Source: an uncultured Alphaproteobacteria bacterium (GTDB lineage: Bacteria > Pseudomonadota > Alphaproteobacteria > Rhizobiales > Beijerinckiaceae). From it: a DNA stretch of 40,074 bases. The position numbers and the translations under genes were made by a program. The stretch spans positions 20,060 through 60,133 of the forward strand of contig CALMOK010000295.1 of assembly GCA_937871825.1 (NCBI GenBank), written 5' to 3'. The notes below the pieces were generated by a model that was not told where the DNA came from, ran no database searches, and saw nothing but the letters and a program-made list of their open reading frames with translations. Below, in pieces: positions 538 through 11,717 of the stretch (its first letter is position 1; each line of letters begins with the position of its first letter).

Positions 538-707
538 TCGCCGAGCCTCGGACAGCGCAGCGGCAGGCGCAGGCGCTCCAAGGCCGCCGAGGCGGCCAGC
601 ATCACCGCAACGTTGGCCTCGGCGACCGCTACGGCACGGGTCTGGCCGGCATCGACGCGCCCCGCGGCCTCGCCAGCCGAGAGGGTGCCGTCATGGTCGG
701 GTCTCAC
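534..707 (-). CDS. Small 57-aa ORF of unknown function, translationally coupled on both sides (GTG start)
   Basis: GTG at 707 overlaps the racemase stop (GTGA); TGA at 536-534 overlaps the TTG start of the next gene. Translation VRPDHDGTLSAGEAAGRVDAGQTRAVAVAEANVAVMLAASAALERLRLPLRCPRLGD. Confidence 0.5.
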   Translation of the reverse strand: MRPDHDGTLSAGEAAGRVDAGQTRAVAVAEANVAVMLAASAALERLRLPLRCPRLGD

Positions 708-1477
708 GGGCGGGACCCATTGAATAGGACGGGAGAGCCGGCCAGCAACGCCTCAAGGGAGGGCACAAGGCCGCTGGAGGACTTGGGCTCGGGACGCCGA
801 TAGGTGCCGGCGATGGCCTTGCGGACATCGAGTGCCACCAACAGTTCGGCCTGTTTGACCGCGGCCGCGATGCCCTCGATCACCGGTACCGCGATGCGGC
901 TTTTCACGCTGGCCGCGAGACCCGCGAGCGGGGCGCCGGCCAGCACGACCACATCAGCCTCGTCCTCCTCGACGGCCCGATTGGCGAGCGCGACCAGGAG
1001 ATCCGCCTTCTCGGCGGCCACATCGGCGATGGAGGCGAAAGTGTCGTCGAGAAGGCGGATGCTGGCGAGGCGATCCCTCAGGCCATGCGCCTCCACGCAT
1101 TCCCGGTACCAGGGCCCGAGCGCGCGGGCGAAGGAGACGATCGTAAACCGCCGACCGAGCATGCAGGCGCTGAGCATGGCCGCTTCGGCGAGGCCGATGA
1201 CCGGCACATCCATCAGCTCCCGTGCGCCGCCGAGGCCGGGGTCGCCGAAGGCGGCCACGATCGCAGCATCGAATGTCCCGATCCGCTCCGCCAGCATCTC
1301 GAGCACGACGGCGCCGCCGATCGCGGCCTCGGCCCGAGTCGCGATATAGGGCACGCCGCGCGTGGCGCTTATCGCGAGGATCTCGGTGCCCCGGGCCGCG
1401 ACCGCGCGGGCCACGGTGGCGAGCCGGTCCGTCACCGCCGTCGTGGTGTTGGGATTGAGAATGAGGATGCGCGTCAC
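704..1477 (-). CDS. Hydantoin racemase / Asp-Glu racemase family protein lacking the catalytic Cys pair
   Basis: MTRILILNPNTTTAVTDRLA... 'NPNT' start and 'GDPGLGGARE' are typical of the hydantoin racemase family; GTG start overlaps an upstream TGA. Confidence 0.85.
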   Translation of the reverse strand: MTRILILNPNTTTAVTDRLATVARAVAARGTEILAISATRGVPYIATRAEAAIGGAVVLEMLAERIGTFDAAIVAAFGDPGLGGARELMDVPVIGLAEAAMLSACMLGRRFTIVSFARALGPWYRECVEAHGLRDRLASIRLLDDTFASIADVAAEKADLLVALANRAVEEDEADVVVLAGAPLAGLAASVKSRIAVPVIEGIAAAVKQAELLVALDVRKAIAGTYRRPEPKSSSGLVPSLEALLAGSPVLFNGSRP

Positions 1478-1753: not shown

Positions 1754-3298
1754 CTATGTCCGCGACGAGGGAGCGTAGAACGGCTCGCGCCCCGGCATGT
1801 CCTTCAGGTAATCGGCATAGAAGGCCTGGACGTGCGGGAACACCTGTCGGCGCAGCACCCGGCTCGTTTCCTCGGCTGCGGTGCGCGGTCGCCCCAGCGT
1901 TTCCGCGATCTCGGCCAGCACCTTGTCGCGGTCGACGTGAGTGAAGCGGCCGTTCTCGTACATCACCGTTCCGCCCACCACCGTGGCGTCGACGTGCTGG
2001 GTCTTGGCGCGCTGGATCAAGGCATCGAGCATCGGCACGTCATCGTCCTGGTAGGGATAGAAGGCCTGCTCGACGTCGATCAACACGGCATCGGCCATGC
2101 GGCCGGCCTCGAGTTTGCCGATGCTGGCCCCGAAGGCCGTGGTCATCGCGCCGCCCTCGGTCGCCATCTTCAGGATCTGCGGGCAGGACGGCACGTCTTC
2201 CTCCCGCATGCCCGGCACACGGTGCACCCGGAGCGCCAGCCGCATCTCCTGCAGCATGTCGCGGTCCTCGTTGATGCCGGCCTCGTCGAGCCCCATGCCG
2301 ACCGTGACCCCATGGGCCGCGAACGCGTTGAGCGGCGCCACGCCGCTGCGCAGCCGCAGGTTGGACGAGCAATTGTGGCAGATGCAGGTGCCGGTGGACG
2401 CCGCGACCTCGATGTCCTCCTCGGTCAGCCAGACACCGTGGCCGAGCGTCATGCCGGGGCCGAGCAGCCCGAGCTTGTTGAGATGCTTCACCGCAGTGGT
2501 GCCGGTGCGGCGGCGGGCATATTCCTTCTGGTAGACGGTTTCGAGCAGGTGCATGTGCATTGGCACCCGGGCGGCATCGGCCTTCTCCTTGAGGGCCAGC
2601 AGTCCGTCGTCGCTGACCCAGTGGAGGTTGGCCGGGGCGAGCTGGATGCGGGTGAGGTCCTGCCCACGGTTCTCGGCGCTCAGCTCGTCGAACAGCGTCA
2701 GGTAGTCGGCGAAGGGCAGCCGCTGGTTGGCGAGATGGGGCGCCAGCAACGCGGCGGTCTCGGCCGGCAGGCGCTGCAGGAAATCCTCGTCGGCCTCGTA
2801 GACGAGGCGGTTTTGTTCGCGCACCGCGAAACAATAGGAGGCCCGCATGCCGATCGCGCGATAGGCCTCCAGCACCTTGGTGGAGCAGGCGTGGATATGG
2901 GCCAGCGGCCCGGGGATCCAGCCATGGATGTGCTGCACCGTGGTGATGCCGGACGCCAGCATCTCGAAGGCCGAATAGAGGGTGTCCAGGTAGAGGTCGA
3001 TGCTACGCCCCGAGATCCGGCTCGCGAACCACAGTTCGAGCGCATAATCGGGCGAGCCGAGCTGCAGCGGCGTCAGGCCGACATGGTGATGGCTGTTGAC
3101 GAAGCCCGGCAGCACGACATGTTTCGACGAGCCATAGGTCGGTGCGTCCGGGTATTTCCGGCGCATCGCCTCGGCGTCGCCGACCTCGACCACCACCCCG
3201 TCGCGATGCACCACGGCGGCGTCGCGCAGCACGGTCGCGCGTTCCCTGTTTTCCACGCCGGTGACCACCCACCCACCGACCAGCAGACGCTCTGACAT
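1754..3298 (-). CDS. Amidohydrolase, ATZ/TRZ (chlorohydrolase/deaminase) subfamily
   Basis: MSERLLVGGWVVTGVENRERA...VLPGFVNSHHHVG...MHMHLLETVYQKEYA...TLGHGVWLTEEDIE...GMGLDEAGINEDRDMLQE; HxH, His, His, Asp metal-site pattern. The longer ORF starting at 3811 is an over-extension into the GntR gene. Confidence 0.9.
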   Translation of the reverse strand: MSERLLVGGWVVTGVENRERATVLRDAAVVHRDGVVVEVGDAEAMRRKYPDAPTYGSSKHVVLPGFVNSHHHVGLTPLQLGSPDYALELWFASRISGRSIDLYLDTLYSAFEMLASGITTVQHIHGWIPGPLAHIHACSTKVLEAYRAIGMRASYCFAVREQNRLVYEADEDFLQRLPAETAALLAPHLANQRLPFADYLTLFDELSAENRGQDLTRIQLAPANLHWVSDDGLLALKEKADAARVPMHMHLLETVYQKEYARRRTGTTAVKHLNKLGLLGPGMTLGHGVWLTEEDIEVAASTGTCICHNCSSNLRLRSGVAPLNAFAAHGVTVGMGLDEAGINEDRDMLQEMRLALRVHRVPGMREEDVPSCPQILKMATEGGAMTTAFGASIGKLEAGRMADAVLIDVEQAFYPYQDDDVPMLDALIQRAKTQHVDATVVGGTVMYENGRFTHVDRDKVLAEIAETLGRPRTAAEETSRVLRRQVFPHVQAFYADYLKDMPGREPFYAPSSRT

Positions 3299-3390: not shown

Positions 3391-4098
3391 TCAGGCCCGC
3401 GCTGTTTCCAGCGCGGCCCCCAGCACCGCCCTGAGGCTCGGGCCGGAGCGTGGCCGGGGCGACAGGTCGAGGCCGCCTTCGAGCGCCCTCAGGTGGTCGT
3501 CCATCTCGCGGGCGGCGCCCTCGACGTCGCCGGCCTCGAGAAGCTCGATCAGGCGGCGGTGCTCGTGCGTCCGGCAGCCGGACGATCCCCGATGCTGGTG
3601 CACCGTGATGGCCAGCACGGTCCGCGACACGAGTTCCCGCAGCATGGTGGCCGCGATCGGATTTTCGGTGAGCTCGGCCATGATAAGGTGGAAGTCGCCC
3701 GAAAGCCGCAGGGCCGCCGTCTCGTCCCCCTCCGCATGCGCCCTGTCCTCGGCGTCGACGCAGGCCATGAGCGGTCGCCACCCTTGTGGGGGAGGGGCGT
3801 CGCAAAGGCAACGCACGATGCCCCCTTCCAGCATGCGGCGGGCCCCGAACAGATGCTTGGCCTCGTCGAGCGGCGGCTCCGCCACGAAGGCACCGCGATG
3901 CGGTACGAGCGTTACCAGGCCTTCGTCGCCCAACCGGGCCAGGGCCCAGCGCACCGGTCCGCGCTTGCAGGCGAACGTGTCGGCGATGATGTCCTCCGTG
4001 AGCTTGGTGCCGGGCGGCAGCCTGCGTCCCACGATGGCTTCCCGGGTGGTGGCGAAGATGCGGTGCTTCACATCGACCTCAGCCACGCCGCCCTCCAC
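3391..4098 (-). CDS. GntR family transcriptional regulator, FadR/FCD subfamily
   Basis: Winged-HTH N-terminus (IFATTREAIVGRRLPPGTKLTEDIIADTFACKRGPVRWALARLGDEGLVTLVPHRGAFVAEP) plus all-helical FCD domain with 'DFHLIMAELTENPIAATMLRELVSRT' and 'HEHRRLIELLEAGD'. Confidence 0.9.
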   Translation of the reverse strand: MEGGVAEVDVKHRIFATTREAIVGRRLPPGTKLTEDIIADTFACKRGPVRWALARLGDEGLVTLVPHRGAFVAEPPLDEAKHLFGARRMLEGGIVRCLCDAPPPQGWRPLMACVDAEDRAHAEGDETAALRLSGDFHLIMAELTENPIAATMLRELVSRTVLAITVHQHRGSSGCRTHEHRRLIELLEAGDVEGAAREMDDHLRALEGGLDLSPRPRSGPSLRAVLGAALETARA

Positions 4099-4115: not shown

Positions 4116-4127
4116 ATTGTTAACAAT
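4116..4127. promoter_or_regulatory. Perfect 12-bp palindrome ATTGTTAACAAT, candidate GntR/FCD operator
   Basis: ATTGTT/AACAAT, in the divergent GntR-transporter intergenic region 18 bp upstream of the GntR start; TTGT-N-ACAA resembles FCD-type operators. Confidence 0.45.
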
Positions 4128-4230
4128 ACAACCTCGAATTTGTGCACGATATTCCGATCGTGTCGTCAACGATGCGTGAGATCGAAGTGCTGCCAGAGGC
4201 ATGCCTTGCTTGTCCAGCCTCAACGATCGC

Positions 4231-4246
4231 TGGCATGCGCTTTGCC
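4231..4246 (+). promoter_or_regulatory. Candidate sigma-54 (RpoN) -24/-12 promoter TGGCATGCGCTTTGCC
   Basis: Matches TGGCAYG-N4-TTGC with GG-N10-GC spacing; about 67 bp upstream of the first gene of the transporter/amidase operon. Confidence 0.65.
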
Positions 4247-4312
4247 TAGAGGTGAAAGCCAACTTTTCCGGAGAACGGGTTCTCCCTTGATCGATCTCGT
4301 GGACATGCAATC

Positions 4313-5212
4313 GTGATCCTGACGCACGGCGGCGCCTTGTCGAACCTGCCGCTCTTCCTCGCGATCGACGCCGGCTTTCTGGCGGGCCGTGGTCTCGCGG
4401 TCGTGGCGCCCCCATTGGACGCCTTCTCGTCAACGGTGTCTCGCCTTCGCGACGGCACCGCCGACATCGGCACGACGGGCTTCACCCAGGCACTGGCCGA
4501 CGCCGACGACCTCGACCCGCTGGTGATCGTGGCGGGCAGCGGCGTCCGCGGCATGGCTCTGCTCGGCCGCTCCGGATCCGACATCGAAACCCTGTCCGGC
4601 ACGGTCGGCACCTTCGCCGACGACCCCATGCAGGTCCTGCTGACGGACGTCATCGAACGGCACGACCTCGGGGCGCGGACGACGGTCCGGTTCATGACGT
4701 CGCTGGCCGAGGCCGCCGAGGCGCTGCTGTCGGGTGCGGTCGCGGCCATTACCACCGTCGAGCCGTGGATTGACAGGCTCCGGGCCCAGGGCGCGACGCT
4801 CCTGAGCGACGGTACCGACCTTTGGGGGCCGGACTACCCCGACACCGTCCTGGTGACGCGCCGCAGCGTCGTGGACGCGCGCCCCGCGGACGTCACGACC
4901 GTGATCGCGGCCATGCTGGACGCCGAGCGCATGATCGTGGCCGATCCCGACGGCGCGCTGGCGGCCGTCGCGCACCGCTTTCCCCTTTTCTCGCTCGCGG
5001 ACCTGCGGGCGGGTCTGCATGGCCAGCCGCCCCGCGTCGACTTGCGGGGTCTCGAGGATGTGGTCCTCGACCGCTGGCCCACCGTCCGGTGCCTCGCCGG
5101 GCGTCCTTCCGGTCCCCGACCACCCGGAATCATCGACCTCACCTGCCTCGACGCCGCCTGCGCACGCGGTTTCCAGGCTTCGCCCACCGAAAGGATCGCA
5201 TATGTCCAATGA
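4313..5212 (+). CDS. NMT1/THI5/SsuA-like solute-binding protein without apparent signal peptide (GTG start)
   Basis: MILTHGGALSNLPLFLAIDAGFLAGRGLAVV...; homologous along its length to the adjacent 5202..6266 product (shared 'SDGTDxxGPxYxDxVLxxRS'). No N-terminal hydrophobic segment. Confidence 0.8.
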   Translation: MILTHGGALSNLPLFLAIDAGFLAGRGLAVVAPPLDAFSSTVSRLRDGTADIGTTGFTQALADADDLDPLVIVAGSGVRGMALLGRSGSDIETLSGTVGTFADDPMQVLLTDVIERHDLGARTTVRFMTSLAEAAEALLSGAVAAITTVEPWIDRLRAQGATLLSDGTDLWGPDYPDTVLVTRRSVVDARPADVTTVIAAMLDAERMIVADPDGALAAVAHRFPLFSLADLRAGLHGQPPRVDLRGLEDVVLDRWPTVRCLAGRPSGPRPPGIIDLTCLDAACARGFQASPTERIAYVQ

Positions 5213-6266
5213 TAGCAGGCTTCCCGGCGCGGGCTCCGTCGCGACCGCCGGAATCAACCGTCGCACGCTGCTGGCCCGCACGGCCTGCGTGGGTGGCGCG
5301 GTCGCGGCAAGCCGCTTCCTTTGCACGAGCCCGGCCGAAGCCGCCACGACCGTGACCTTCAAGGCGACCCATGGCACGGGCCTCTGCAACTGCCCCTTCT
5401 TCATGGTCAAGGAAAAGGAGCTCGGGAAAGCCGACGGTGTGGCGCTCGACTTCGTCACGACGCCCACCAATGCCGACATCGCGGCCCTGTTCGGCGCCGG
5501 CGTGGTCGACGTGTCGGTGGTGCCCTACACCAACTTCATGACGCTCTACGACGCCGGCGCCCCGGTGAAGATCATCGCGGGCTCGGGCGTCCAGGGCTGC
5601 GTGATCGTGGCCCAGCCCGGCATCAATTCAGCGGCGGACCTCAGGGGCAAAACCATCGGTACCTTCCAGGCCGACACGCTGGAGATGCTGCCGCTCGACT
5701 ACCTGAAAAAGGCTGGCATGACGTTCGCGGACGTGAAAGTCCGCTATTTCGGCACCTCGCCCGAGCTCGCCCAGGCCTTTATCGGCGGCAACATCGACGC
5801 CATGTGCCACATCGAGCCCTATGCCACCCAGGCGATGGCGTCGCGCAAGGGCTCCGTCAAGCTGTCGGACGGCACGGACGTTTATGGTCCGCTCTACACC
5901 GATTGCGTGCTCGCGGTCCGTTCCAAGCTCATCGCCGAGAACCGCCCCGCCGTGAAGGCGCTCATCAAGGCCATGATGATGGGTCAGCTCTTCGAGGAAA
6001 CCGAGCGCGAGGCGGCCATCAAGCTGACGACGCCCAAATACTTCAAGACGACCTTCGAGGCGGCCCTCGACGCTTCGAATAAGCAGCCCGGCATGGTCGA
6101 CCAGCGCAAGAACCAGGACTTCATCCTGGCCCGTGCCCAGAACCTGAAGGACCTGCGCTACATCAAGACGATGCCGACCGCCGACATTTTCGACTGGTCC
6201 ATGCTGAACGAGGTGATCGCCGAGAACGCCGACCTTTACGGCAAGCTGCAGCTGAAGTCGGCGTGA
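5202..6266 (+). CDS. ABC transporter substrate-binding protein, NMT1/SsuA-like, Tat-type signal
   Basis: MSNDSRLPGAGSVATAGINRRTLLARTACVGGAVAASRFLCTSPAEAATTVTFKATHGTGLCNCPFFMVKEKELGKADGVAL...; twin-arginine leader. Confidence 0.88.
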   Translation: MSNDSRLPGAGSVATAGINRRTLLARTACVGGAVAASRFLCTSPAEAATTVTFKATHGTGLCNCPFFMVKEKELGKADGVALDFVTTPTNADIAALFGAGVVDVSVVPYTNFMTLYDAGAPVKIIAGSGVQGCVIVAQPGINSAADLRGKTIGTFQADTLEMLPLDYLKKAGMTFADVKVRYFGTSPELAQAFIGGNIDAMCHIEPYATQAMASRKGSVKLSDGTDVYGPLYTDCVLAVRSKLIAENRPAVKALIKAMMMGQLFEETEREAAIKLTTPKYFKTTFEAALDASNKQPGMVDQRKNQDFILARAQNLKDLRYIKTMPTADIFDWSMLNEVIAENADLYGKLQLKSA

Positions 6267-7156
6267 AAGCGCTCCCGCTGACCGCGGGCGCGCTGCCCGC
6301 CGTCGCTTCCACGACCGCGCGGCGCCTGCGCGCGGTTCGGGGGCTCACAATCGTCATCTGGTGGGTGCTCTCGCTCGGCTGCTTCGCCGGGATCTGGGAA
6401 GCGGCCTGGGCGCTCGGCTGGGCCGACCCGCTCCTGTTGCCACCGCCCCACATCTTCCTGGCGCGCTTCTCCGACCAGGCGCAGGCCTTCGCGTCGAACG
6501 ACGTCATCGGCGAGGTTTCGGCCGATAGCGCCTATGTGGCGCTGCTGACGACCATCGTGGCCTCCAGCCTGCGCGTGTTGGCGGGCCTCGCGCTCGGCTT
6601 CACGTTCAGCGTGGGGATGGGCCTGCTGATCCGCTACTTCCGGCCCTTCGGCAATCTCACGTTGCCGACCATCACTCTGCTGGCGCCGATCTCGCCCATC
6701 GCCTGGTTGCCGGTGGCGATCTTCATCTTCGGCATCGGCAATCCGCCCGCGATCTTCATGGTTTTCATCTCGCTGTTCTTTGTCATGACCTTGTCGACGA
6801 TCAGCCAGGTCGATTCCGTGAGCCGCACCTTCCTGAACGTCGGCGCCATCATGGGCGCGAGCAGGCGTCAGCTGTTCCTCCACGTCATCGTGCCCGCCAT
6901 CCTGCCGTCGCTGTTCATGACGCTCCGCATGAACCTCTTCGGCGCCTGGATGGTGGTGCTGGTCGCGGAAGCGACCGGGGTCGGCAGCGGGCTCGGGCAG
7001 ATCGTCATGCTGGCGCGCAACACGTTCAACTCGAGCCTGTCGTTCTTCACCATGACGCTGATCGGCCTCGTCGGCTTCCTGTTCGACGTGGCGCTGCGGC
7101 AGGTTCAGAACCGCGTGCTGTTCTGGGTGCCGCCGAGTGCCGTGGGGCGCCTTTGA
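6263..7156 (+). CDS. ABC transporter permease (SsuC/TauC/ThiX-like)
   Basis: Multi-TM protein with EAA-type loop 'VGAIMGASRRQLFLHVIVPAILPSLFMTLRMNL'; start overlaps the upstream stop (GTGA). Confidence 0.88.
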   Translation: MKALPLTAGALPAVASTTARRLRAVRGLTIVIWWVLSLGCFAGIWEAAWALGWADPLLLPPPHIFLARFSDQAQAFASNDVIGEVSADSAYVALLTTIVASSLRVLAGLALGFTFSVGMGLLIRYFRPFGNLTLPTITLLAPISPIAWLPVAIFIFGIGNPPAIFMVFISLFFVMTLSTISQVDSVSRTFLNVGAIMGASRRQLFLHVIVPAILPSLFMTLRMNLFGAWMVVLVAEATGVGSGLGQIVMLARNTFNSSLSFFTMTLIGLVGFLFDVALRQVQNRVLFWVPPSAVGRL

Positions 7157-7962
7157 TGCTTGACACGATTTCAGCAAAGGCGCCGCTCGTCGTGTGCCGC
7201 GGCGTCGGCAAGTCCTGGGAAACCAAGGGCGGCACCGTCACAGCGCTTGACGGCATCGACCTCCTGGTCGACCGCCGCGAGTTCGTGGTCTTCCTCGGCC
7301 CGAGCGGCTGCGGCAAGTCCACGCTGCTCTACCTCATCGCCGGCCTGGAGGCGGTGACCAGCGGCACCATCACCAGCGGCGGGCTCGAGGTGAAGGTCCC
7401 CGGCACGGACCGTGGCCTCATCTTCCAGGAATCCTCGCTGTTTCCCTGGATGTCCGTGGGCGAGAACGTCACCTTCGGCCTCAAGCTGCGCGGCATGAAA
7501 CCCGAGGAACGGCGCGGCATCGCGAACGAACTGCTGCGCAAGGTCGGGCTCGGCGACGCCGCCGACAAGCGGCCGGATCAATTGTCCGGCGGCATGCGCC
7601 AGCGCGCCGCCATGGCGCGCGCCCTGGCGCTGCGCCCCGAGGTGCTGCTGCTCGACGAACCCTTCGCGGCGCTCGACGTGCAGACCCGCTCCAAGATGCA
7701 AGACTTTCTGATCGAGGTTTGGCGCGACAGCGGGGCTTCCATGCTGTTCGTCACCCATCACATCGACGAGGCCGTGGGGCTCGCCGATCGGGTCGTGGTC
7801 TTCACGTCGCGGCCAGGTCGCATCAAGAGCATCGTGCCGGTCGATCTGCCGCGTCCGCGTGACCCCCGCAGTCCCGAGTTCCATGCTTTGTCGGACCACC
7901 TCACCGACCTTTTGCGCGACGAGGTCGACCGCGCCTTTGCCGAACAGGAGCGCGTGCGGTGA
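7156..7962 (+). CDS. ABC transporter ATP-binding protein (SsuB/TauB-like)
   Basis: Walker A GPSGCGKST, signature LSGGMRQRAAMARAL, Walker B LLLDEPFAALD. Confidence 0.93.
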   Translation: MLDTISAKAPLVVCRGVGKSWETKGGTVTALDGIDLLVDRREFVVFLGPSGCGKSTLLYLIAGLEAVTSGTITSGGLEVKVPGTDRGLIFQESSLFPWMSVGENVTFGLKLRGMKPEERRGIANELLRKVGLGDAADKRPDQLSGGMRQRAAMARALALRPEVLLLDEPFAALDVQTRSKMQDFLIEVWRDSGASMLFVTHHIDEAVGLADRVVVFTSRPGRIKSIVPVDLPRPRDPRSPEFHALSDHLTDLLRDEVDRAFAEQERVR

Positions 7963-8807
7963 CGGTGGTCCTCGCCGCCGCGCAACTCCCTGGCTGCGTC
8001 CTCGACCTTGCGGCCAACGTTGAGACCGCCGAAGCGGCGGTGCGCGCGGCGGCGGCGCGGGGCGCCCATATCGTGGCGCTGCCCGAGATGGCGACCTTGC
8101 CGTATTTCTGCGGTGATGGGCCCGAAGCCTACCGGGCCTGGGCCGAACCGTCCCACGGGCCGCTGGCGCGGCGCTTCGCGGCCTTGGCGGCCGAGACCGG
8201 CACGGCTGTGTTTCTGCCGTTCTACGAGCACGATCCGGAGACCGGGCGCTACCACAACGCCGTGCTGGGCTTCGGCCCGGATGGTGCGCCGCTGCGGGAC
8301 GGTCCGGTGGCGCGCAAGCTCCACCTGCCGGTCGGCGACGACCCGCCGCCCGGCTTCGACGAGCGAGCCCATTTCTCGCCCGGCGACGCGCTGCACGTGG
8401 TCGAGGTCCGTGGCGTCCGGGTCGGCGTGCTGGTCTGCTACGACCGCCGCTTTCCCGAAGCCTGGCGGGCCCTGCGCCGCGGGGGCGCCGATCTCGTCGT
8501 GGTGCCGGTGGCCGGCAGCGGGGGCGACGACATGGACTTCTTCGTCGGCGAAATGCGAACCCATGCGCGCGAGAACGGCCTCGCGGTGCTCTGCGCCAAT
8601 AAGGTCGGCGACGAGCCCATCGGCGGTGGGGTGGTCGACAATTACGGGTATTCGGCCATTATCGATGCCGACGGCACGGTCCTGGCGCTGCGCCCGCGCC
8701 AAGAGGGAGCGGGCCTCGTCCTGGCCGAGCTCGACGTGGCGGCCATTCCGGCCATTCGCCGCCGGCTCCGCTATTACGACGATCGCCGCGAAGACCTCTT
8801 CGCATGA
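7959..8807 (+). CDS. Carbon-nitrogen hydrolase (nitrilase superfamily; carbamoylase/amidase-like)
   Basis: Glu-Lys-Cys pattern: ALPEMATLPYF, RKLHLPVGD, GVLVCYDRRFPEAWRAL; GTG start overlaps ATPase stop. Confidence 0.88.
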   Translation: MTVVLAAAQLPGCVLDLAANVETAEAAVRAAAARGAHIVALPEMATLPYFCGDGPEAYRAWAEPSHGPLARRFAALAAETGTAVFLPFYEHDPETGRYHNAVLGFGPDGAPLRDGPVARKLHLPVGDDPPPGFDERAHFSPGDALHVVEVRGVRVGVLVCYDRRFPEAWRALRRGGADLVVVPVAGSGGDDMDFFVGEMRTHARENGLAVLCANKVGDEPIGGGVVDNYGYSAIIDADGTVLALRPRQEGAGLVLAELDVAAIPAIRRRLRYYDDRREDLFA

Positions 8808-10180
8808 CGGACGCCGTGTTCTCCGCCCTGACCCTTGCGTTCACCGTGCTGGACGGCACGAACTCGCCGCTAAACACCGTGGGCGACGCCCTGCAGCGGA
8901 TCGAAACCGGCAACGACGCCCTCCGGGCCATCGTGACAACCGATGCGGCCGACAGCCTGAGGCAGGCCGAACTCGTGGTGCGCCGCCTCGCGGCCGGCGA
9001 GCGTCCGCCCCTCGCCGGCGTGCCGATCGTGGTCAAGGACGCGATCTGGGTGGCGGGCTGGCGCGTCACCCAGGGCTCGCGGCTTTACGCCGATTTCGTG
9101 GCTCCGGCCGACAACGTCGCGGTGGCGCGGCTGCGCCGGGCCGGGGCCGTCGTGGTCGGGATGGCCAACATGTCGGAATTCGGCTGCAAGGGCGTCACGT
9201 CGAACCCGCTTCACGGCACCACCCGCCACCCGCTCGACCTGCGTCTGACGCCCGGCGGCTCGAGCGGGGGATGTGCATCGGCGCTCGGCGCCGGGCTGGT
9301 GCCGCTGGCGCTCGGCACCGACGGGGGCGGCTCGGGCCGCCGTCCCGCCGCCCATGTGGGCGCCGTCGGGTTCAAGCCGTCGGGCGGCGTCGTGGCCAAC
9401 GGACCCGGCTTCGAGGGCGGCGGCTCCCTCACGGCCGTGCTGGCGCCGATGGGGCGCTCGGTCGCCGATGTCGCGGCTCTGTTCGAGGTCCTGCTCGGGA
9501 GCGATCCGGCCGATCCGCTGGCGGTCACGCTTCCGGATGCGAAACACGGCGATCGGCTCAGGATCGCCTACACGCCCACTTTCGGGCTTGGCGGCCCGGT
9601 CGACCCCGATGTCGCGGCCTGCGTCGCGGCCGCGGTCGATGAGCTCGCGGAGGCCGGCATCGACATCCGACCCTTTGATCCGGTCTGGCCGACGGGTGCC
9701 GACGAAGCCGCCCTGATGCCATTGCAATGGGCTGGACTGGCCAAGGCTTACGGGGCGCGCTGGCAGCGCGATCCCGACCTTTTCGATCCCTACATCGGAG
9801 CGCAGATCGCACGCGGCCTCGCGCAGCCCGAAGCCGATGTCGCCGCGGCCCGCGCCATGGCCCAAAGGGTCGTCGAAGCGGCGCAGCGCTTTTTCGCGGA
9901 TTTCGACCTCGTGATCGGCCCGACCACGCCCTGCACGGCTTGGCCGCACGACCGGCTCGGCCCGGCCGAGATCGATGGGCAGCCCGTTCACGACCGCGCC
10001 CACGCGGCCTTCACGCCGTCCTTCAACCACGCCCTCGCTGCCGCGATCTCCATTCCCTGCGGGGTCGATCGGCACGGCCTGCCGATCGGGCTGCAGATCG
10101 CGGGACCCCGCTTCGCCGACCGCCGGGTGCTCGCCGCGGCGGCGGTGGCCGAGCGGCAACTGGCCGGTGTCGGCCCATGA
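8804..10180 (+). CDS. Amidase, amidase-signature family (GatA-like)
   Basis: GVPIVVKDAIWVAG (Lys), TPGGSSGGCASALGAGLVPLALGTDGGGSGRRPAAHVGAVGFKPS (Ser-rich AS motif). Confidence 0.92.
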   Translation: MTDAVFSALTLAFTVLDGTNSPLNTVGDALQRIETGNDALRAIVTTDAADSLRQAELVVRRLAAGERPPLAGVPIVVKDAIWVAGWRVTQGSRLYADFVAPADNVAVARLRRAGAVVVGMANMSEFGCKGVTSNPLHGTTRHPLDLRLTPGGSSGGCASALGAGLVPLALGTDGGGSGRRPAAHVGAVGFKPSGGVVANGPGFEGGGSLTAVLAPMGRSVADVAALFEVLLGSDPADPLAVTLPDAKHGDRLRIAYTPTFGLGGPVDPDVAACVAAAVDELAEAGIDIRPFDPVWPTGADEAALMPLQWAGLAKAYGARWQRDPDLFDPYIGAQIARGLAQPEADVAAARAMAQRVVEAAQRFFADFDLVIGPTTPCTAWPHDRLGPAEIDGQPVHDRAHAAFTPSFNHALAAAISIPCGVDRHGLPIGLQIAGPRFADRRVLAAAAVAERQLAGVGP

Positions 10181-10190
10181 CGAACCTCGC

Positions 10191-11717
10191 ATGATCCTGA
10201 TCCGCGGCGGACGCGTCTACGACCCGGCGGGCGACACCGATCATCCGGCCATCCGGGATGTCATGGTCGACGGCGACACGATCGTCTCGGTGACGGCGCC
10301 CGACGCGGACCCGGAGGCCAAACGCCGTGTCGAAACCGAAGCGGCCCGCGGCGTCGGCGCGATGATCGACGCCCGCGACACCCTCGTGCTGCCCGGCTTC
10401 GTCAACGCCCATTACCATTCCTACGACACGCTCGTGAAAGGGCTCATCGAGGATGCGCCCTTCGATCTCTGGGCCTTGCAGACCCAGCCGGCCTTCTACG
10501 GCCGCCGCTCGAAGGCGGAGCTGCGCCTGCGCACCCTTCTCGGCGCCATCGAGTGCCTGAAGGGCGGCATCACAACCGTCCAGGACATGTGCACGCTGGT
10601 GCCGCAGGACGAGGAAACGCTGGACGTCATCGCGTCCGCCTATGCCGAGGTCGGCATCCGCGTGGTTTTCGCGCTGGCGCTGCGCGACGTCGGCGACCTC
10701 GACATCGCACCCTTCCTGCCCGACGATCTGAGCGACACCGTGCGCCGGGCCGTGACCGGGAGCCCGCGCGACGCCGCCGAGGACCTCGCCTTCGCGGCGG
10801 CGCAGATCCGGCGATTGCCGGCCGGGGATCTCTGGCACTGGGGTGTCGCCGCCTCGGGGCCGCAGCGCGCGTCGGACACCCTTCTCGAAGGGGTGGCGGC
10901 GCTGTCGGAACGCTACGGCATGCCGATCTTCACCCACGTCTACGAGACGCGCGCGCAGGCCGCCAAGGCGCGTCGCATCTACGGACGGCACGACGGCTCG
11001 ATGATCCGCCACATGGCGGAGGTGGGCGTGCTCGGGCCGCGGACCACCATGGCGCATGGTGTCTGCATCGCGCCGGACGAGATCGCGACGATCGCCCGCG
11101 CCGGTGCCACGGTGGCCCACAACCCGCTGAGCAACATGAAGCTGAAAAGCGGCGTGGCGCCCATCCGGGCCCTCAAGGCCGAGGGCGTGAACCTCGCCAT
11201 CGGCTGCGACAATTGTTCCTGCGGCGACTGCCAGAACATGTTCCAGGGCTTGAAAATGTTCTGCCTGCTGGCCGGCGTCGCCGACCCCGGGCCGACGGGC
11301 GTCCACGCGGTCCACGCCATCGAGGCGGCGACGCGCGGCGGGGCGCGGGCGCTCGGGCTTGGCAAGACGATCGGCGCGATCGAGCCGGGCCGCAAGGCCG
11401 ACCTCAGCCTCGTCCGCCTCGACACGATGGCCTTCACGCCCTTCAACAGCGCGGCACGACAGATCACGTTCAGCGAAACCGGCAGCGGGGTCGACACCGT
11501 GTTGGTCGGCGGCCGCGTGGTGGTGCGGGACGGGCGGTTGACGACGCTCGACGAAGCCGCGATCCGGGCCGAGATCGCCGACATGATGCCGGCCTTCCGG
11601 CGCGATTTCGAAGACCTCCGCCGCACGAGCGTCGAGGCCGCGCCGGTGCTCGTCGCGGCCCTGCGGCGGCTGGAAACGATCGATGTCGGCCTCGACCGCC
11701 ACCTCGCGAAGCGTTGA
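10191..11717 (+). CDS. Amidohydrolase, ATZ/TRZ subfamily
   Basis: MILIRGGRVYDPAGD...VLPGFVNAHYHSYDTLVKG...FTHVYETRAQA...TMAHGVCIAPDEI...GCDNCSCGDCQNMFQGLKMF; starts 10 bp after the amidase stop. Confidence 0.9.
   Translation: MILIRGGRVYDPAGDTDHPAIRDVMVDGDTIVSVTAPDADPEAKRRVETEAARGVGAMIDARDTLVLPGFVNAHYHSYDTLVKGLIEDAPFDLWALQTQPAFYGRRSKAELRLRTLLGAIECLKGGITTVQDMCTLVPQDEETLDVIASAYAEVGIRVVFALALRDVGDLDIAPFLPDDLSDTVRRAVTGSPRDAAEDLAFAAAQIRRLPAGDLWHWGVAASGPQRASDTLLEGVAALSERYGMPIFTHVYETRAQAAKARRIYGRHDGSMIRHMAEVGVLGPRTTMAHGVCIAPDEIATIARAGATVAHNPLSNMKLKSGVAPIRALKAEGVNLAIGCDNCSCGDCQNMFQGLKMFCLLAGVADPGPTGVHAVHAIEAATRGGARALGLGKTIGAIEPGRKADLSLVRLDTMAFTPFNSAARQITFSETGSGVDTVLVGGRVVVRDGRLTTLDEAAIRAEIADMMPAFRRDFEDLRRTSVEAAPVLVAALRRLETIDVGLDRHLAKR

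Follow-up and report, generated by a model that had tools for sequence, protein, structure and literature searches.

What drives the transporter and amidase operon of an alphaproteobacterium from the genus of Lichenibacterium ramalinae, and does its promoter place it under nitrogen control? The stretch analysed here (the window, 40,074 nucleotides) is part of a 3.8-Mb draft genome. The first-pass annotation had proposed a sigma-54 promoter with GG-N10-GC spacing and a match to TGGCAYG-N4-TTGC, about 67 bp ahead of the GTG start of the first gene, and had read the operon as nitrogen scavenging combined with GntR control. The motif, TGGCATGCGCTTTGC, lies at 4231-4245 on the same strand as the operon and is an exact -24/-12 match, in which the -24 element TGGCATG (4231-4237) and the -12 element TTGC (4242-4245) are separated by a four-nucleotide spacer (CGCT). 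Spacing and consensus match are both as described, at coordinates that agree, and the distance is borne out, with 67 bp between the site (counted from 4246) and the GTG at 4313. Transcription is predicted from the sequence to start at about 4256-4257. Neither a sigma-70-like promoter nor a terminator was found in the intergenic region. The short leader contains a hairpin, GGAGAACGGGTTCTCC, at 4270-4285, which is not kept in relatives.

The site is followed by seven genes that overlap one another and is flanked upstream by three genes on the opposite strand:

4313-5212, plus strand: SBP1, NMT1/SsuA-like solute-binding paralogue (PF13379, PF09084), first gene of the operon
5199-6266, plus strand: SBP2, exported NMT1/SsuA-type solute-binding protein (PF09084)
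6263-7156, plus strand: ABC permease (PF00528)
7153-7962, plus strand: ABC ATPase (PF00005)
7959-8807, plus strand: carbon-nitrogen hydrolase, N-carbamoylputrescine-amidase-like (PF00795; under the NCBIfam equivalog cut-off)
8804-10180, plus strand: amidase (PF01425)
10164-11717, plus strand: TRZ/ATZ-type amidohydrolase (PF01979), start codon uncertain
3391-4098, minus strand: divergent GntR/FCD transcriptional regulator (PF07729 and PF00392, over cut-off)
1754-3289, minus strand: second TRZ/ATZ-type amidohydrolase, on the strand of the GntR gene (PF01979; synteny)
704-1477, minus strand: Asp/Glu/hydantoin racemase, hydantoin-racemase-like (PF01177)

No signal peptide is apparent at the N-terminus of SBP1, and all five aligned homologues start directly in the mature domain; for SBP2, visual inspection of the sequence indicates a Tat-like signal. 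In the congener L041 (G004), the N-terminal part of SBP1 is fused in frame to the C-terminal part of SBP2 (about 10721-9850, minus strand), apparently by deletion; because no separate SBP2 match was found there, the operon may encode no exported binding protein. PDB searches retrieved distant relatives only and indicated no substrate. The nearest solved relatives of the racemase are hydantoin and allantoin racemases, and the orthologue of the second amidohydrolase sits within the transporter operon in sister loci. Judged by sequence, the conserved gene set is one for uptake and hydrolysis of nitrogen compounds. A 2025 survey lists COGs 0715/0600/1116, 4126 and 0402, that is, an importer of the window's type, hydantoin racemase and the COG0402 deaminases, as sigma-54 controlled in Pseudomonadota (PMC12316311), and an RpoN-dependent urt promoter, TGGCATGGTTCTTGC, is known in Bradyrhizobium (PMC13207237). 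The window resembles such sigma-54/NtrC organic-nitrogen uptake operons of Pseudomonadota (e.g. urt) in its -24/-12 element, in the distance to the first gene and in the combination of an ABC importer with hydrolases, but differs from them in that its first gene encodes an additional solute-binding paralogue lacking a signal peptide, and in its GntR tandem operator.

The case for a promoter is carried by conservation. The search for homologous operons covered 199 relatives, 385 genomes belonging to the class and 398 belonging to the order, together with GTDB contigs and plasmids; it gave 31 regions of 450 bp upstream of the first transporter gene, mostly from alphaproteobacteria. In 27 of the 31 the coding strand carries the site with no more than one mismatch (16 exact, 11 with one mismatch). 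At the same threshold the opposite strand, the reversed motif and the complemented motif each gave 0/31; altered spacer lengths gave 0-2 matches, and 300 letter-permuted motifs a mean of 0.26 and a maximum of 3. The conserved loci span at least ten families, although many are related, so 27 is not the number of independent events. Within the window's clade, the site lies 81-86 bp upstream of SBP1 in six loci of alpha- and betaproteobacteria (Lichenibacterium, an Acetobacteraceae MAG, Burkholderia and Paraburkholderia, the copy in the last having two mismatches). Homologues on Klebsiella and Sodalis plasmids have no sigma-54 site, which means that the operon can run from other promoters. Since nearly all related clusters keep the motif in the same place, it is very probably a working sigma-54 promoter.

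In 24 sister operons the transcript is predicted to open with a structured 5' leader that is conserved among them and mostly starts exactly where sigma-54 initiation is predicted:

L068 2548-2715, minus strand; Methylobacterium aquaticum L081 8719-8883; L062, L066, L071 and others: leader copies, each preceding a homologous transporter operon

Of the 18 loci first measured, 14 have a leader that starts 11-12 nt past the GC of the -12 element, the distance that sigma-54 initiation predicts; in L082 the nearest sigma-54 site is about 85 nt from the leader, and in L070 no site was found ahead of it. Its elements are, in order, AGCGCAG, a covarying hairpin and xGG-UUGGCGUG-CCx, followed further 3' by a predicted alternative stem and a predicted stem across the ribosome-binding site (RBS). 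In a 12-pair model 96% of cells pair and 12 cells change on both sides, and none of 500 shuffles attains its covariation score. The RBS stem was left uncounted because the MAFFT alignment of the leader 3' ends displaces it by one column. An RNA model built from 18 loci recovered a copy on a Methylobacterium plasmid (E-value = 1.2e-11), and in the genomes searched the leader is single and always precedes a homologous transporter operon. SBP2 homologues encoded behind the leader (L054-L073) share an unusual N-terminus, MC(D/E)R.G, before the Tat-like motif.

The leader looks like a metabolite-sensing RNA. It resembles the NMT1-motif (xanthine/uric acid) riboswitch (PMC7373994) in its position 5' of NMT1/TauA-type ABC transporter genes, in the guanine-deaminase-like amidohydrolase genes of its operons and in its RBS-masking platform. 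Its core (AGCGCAG...GGUUGGCGUGCC) is unrelated and does not match the crystallised sequence, and a search of 19 sister loci against Rfam 15 was blank; the proposal that the sister leaders are NMT1/xanthine riboswitches was therefore rejected. The L068 and L056 leaders gave only weak sRNA/microRNA matches at a loose threshold, and no description of the leader was found in open-licence papers. A protein-bound or translation-coupling RNA, whose absence from the window's clade would have no functional counterpart, is a possibility to which we give somewhat less than even odds. It draws on the fact that the proposed four-pair pseudoknot is invariant across leaders, so that covariation cannot test it; against it, a near-invariant core within a divergent leader, covarying hairpins and a predicted stem across the ribosome-binding site are all typical of riboswitches.

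Unlike the NMT1-motif operons, the window has no leader: its own leader sequence folds worse than shuffles (z = +2.3) and the RNA model found nothing in the window genome, hence no leader RNA is claimed here. An Rfam search with the window's leader returned only a weak CcsR1 match outside the leader, which scored 17.1 bits where the cut-off is 65.3. The window's clade has instead the extra paralogue SBP1, and the leader and SBP1 occur together in no locus examined. In the SBP2-based tree, SBP1 loci cluster, joined by one Sodalis copy, leader loci lie elsewhere and three loci have neither; the root is distorted by the L041 row, which represents the SBP1-SBP2 chimera. Given this grouping, the contrast may reflect only one or two events. 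In AmiC/AmiR-type control, a solute-binding-protein-like protein serves as a cytosolic sensor. SBP1, likewise encoded without a signal peptide, offers a lead in this direction, but an AmiR-like partner was not seen at the window's locus and a sensor role for SBP1 is putative. We consider it an even bet that the riboswitch-like RNA of the sister clade (AGCGCAG-hairpin-GG-UUGGCGUG-CC core, possible pseudoknot, alternative stem and RBS-masking platform, at or near the sigma-54 start and not in Rfam 15) was replaced in the window's clade by SBP1 and the GntR operators, which may sense the same substrate.

On the regulator side, the genome encodes a single rpoN together with two proteins that match Sigma54_activat strongly; both keep GAFTGA and neither is located at the operon's locus. 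The first, NtrC, scores above its curated cut-off, and the other, L049, is an AtoC/NtrC-like response regulator. As these are the only strong bEBPs, NtrC is the most likely activator. Upstream of the operon, the following elements were recognized:

4192-4217, no strand assigned: candidate activator (enhancer) site GCCAG-N17-CCAG, with CCAG repeats 21 bp apart, based on spacing conservation
4116-4127, no strand assigned: candidate GntR operator 1, palindrome ATTGTTAACAAT, the window's only exact TTGTNNACAA
4139-4150, no strand assigned: candidate GntR operator 2, TTTGTGCACGAT, conserved in the window, L039, L040 and L041
4231-4245, plus strand: predicted sigma-54 (-24/-12) promoter, exact consensus, kept ahead of 27 of the 31 homologous operons against 0 of 31 for the controls

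The two operators form a conserved tandem (TTGTTAACAA / TTGTGCACGA) of the divergent FCD-GntR gene, with the same 23-bp distance in each of the four genomes. This fixed spacing of candidate TTGTNNACAA palindromes bears out the proposed GntR control, as far as sequence can. The GCCAG-N17-CCAG block has identical internal spacing in the same four genomes, where its distance from the GntR operators hardly changes but that from the -24 element varies; it is absent from L077 and L078. From this spacing pattern, it may serve as an activator site. Upstream in the window there is no match to the enteric-type NtrC site (TGCAC-N7-GTGCA) at fewer than three mismatches, and NtrC-type dyads considered there were rejected, none being convincing.

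It is conceivable, but unlikely, that the promoter is real and answers through L049 to a signal other than nitrogen limitation. The choice between just two GAFTGA proteins and the missing enteric-type site leave room for this, but the gene content points to import and hydrolysis of nitrogen compounds, these COGs are widely under sigma-54 control, and retention of the site in many distant lineages is easier to reconcile with a universal activator such as NtrC. The nitrogen-scavenging reading is mostly supported: gene content and the COG survey favour it, but sigma-54 by itself does not prove nitrogen control, given the second activator and the lack of an enteric-type NtrC site. Nitrogen control itself, and with it an NtrC site, is an inference.

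A comparison with the genome background, which had been suggested as a check on the motif, did not single it out. The exact motif occurs once in the 40-kb window, where about 0.07 exact matches are expected by chance on both strands, but sites with at most two mismatches number 27 against 27.8 expected from shuffles, and the whole genome (3.8 Mb) holds 7 exact matches versus 6 for the reversed control motif, so the sequence alone is weak support and could have arisen by chance. At least three of the seven fall inside genes; another (L005, 1501-1515) lies about 250 bp upstream of prkA (gene from 1757), whose product is a PrkA-family kinase over its cut-off. A further one of the seven lies 32 bp upstream of a polyamine-type ABC ATPase gene (L003, 1501-1515, minus strand). 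That the motif is a chance resemblance, with an ordinary promoter under GntR control only, is very improbable: these background counts and the Klebsiella and Sodalis homologues without a site speak for it, but conservation before 27 of 31 homologous operons against 0 of 31 in controls marks the site as more than chance, the leaders start at the distance given above in 14 of 18 leader-bearing loci, and no sigma-70-like site was found in the region.

Strand- and spacer-specific conservation, rpoN, two bEBPs, gene content and an intergenic region without a sigma-70-like promoter together uphold the promoter claim. We put the probability at roughly 85% that 4231-4245 is a functional sigma-54 promoter of a seven-gene organic-nitrogen operon, with proposed NtrC/GntR control. 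Transcription would start near 4256 and run through SBP1, SBP2, permease, ATPase, CN-hydrolase, amidase and amidohydrolase, whose products would import and hydrolyse an organic nitrogen compound. NtrC, or the sole other bEBP, would activate the operon under nitrogen shortage, perhaps from the conserved CCAG-N17-CCAG block, and the GntR protein would exert substrate-specific repression from the operators, which lie 81-115 bp ahead of the -24 element. In the other clade, sister operons would use the same sigma-54 promoter with a structured RNA leader from or near the start point.

A pattern match thus becomes a promoter with evolutionary support, and an uncharacterised organic-nitrogen importer joins the sigma-54 regulon of bacteria associated with lichens. 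The promoter would be one more case of a known type; the leader would be the novelty if switching were shown. This orphan RNA element is compact and sits in a defined operon context, which makes both its ligand and the substrate of the importer directly testable.
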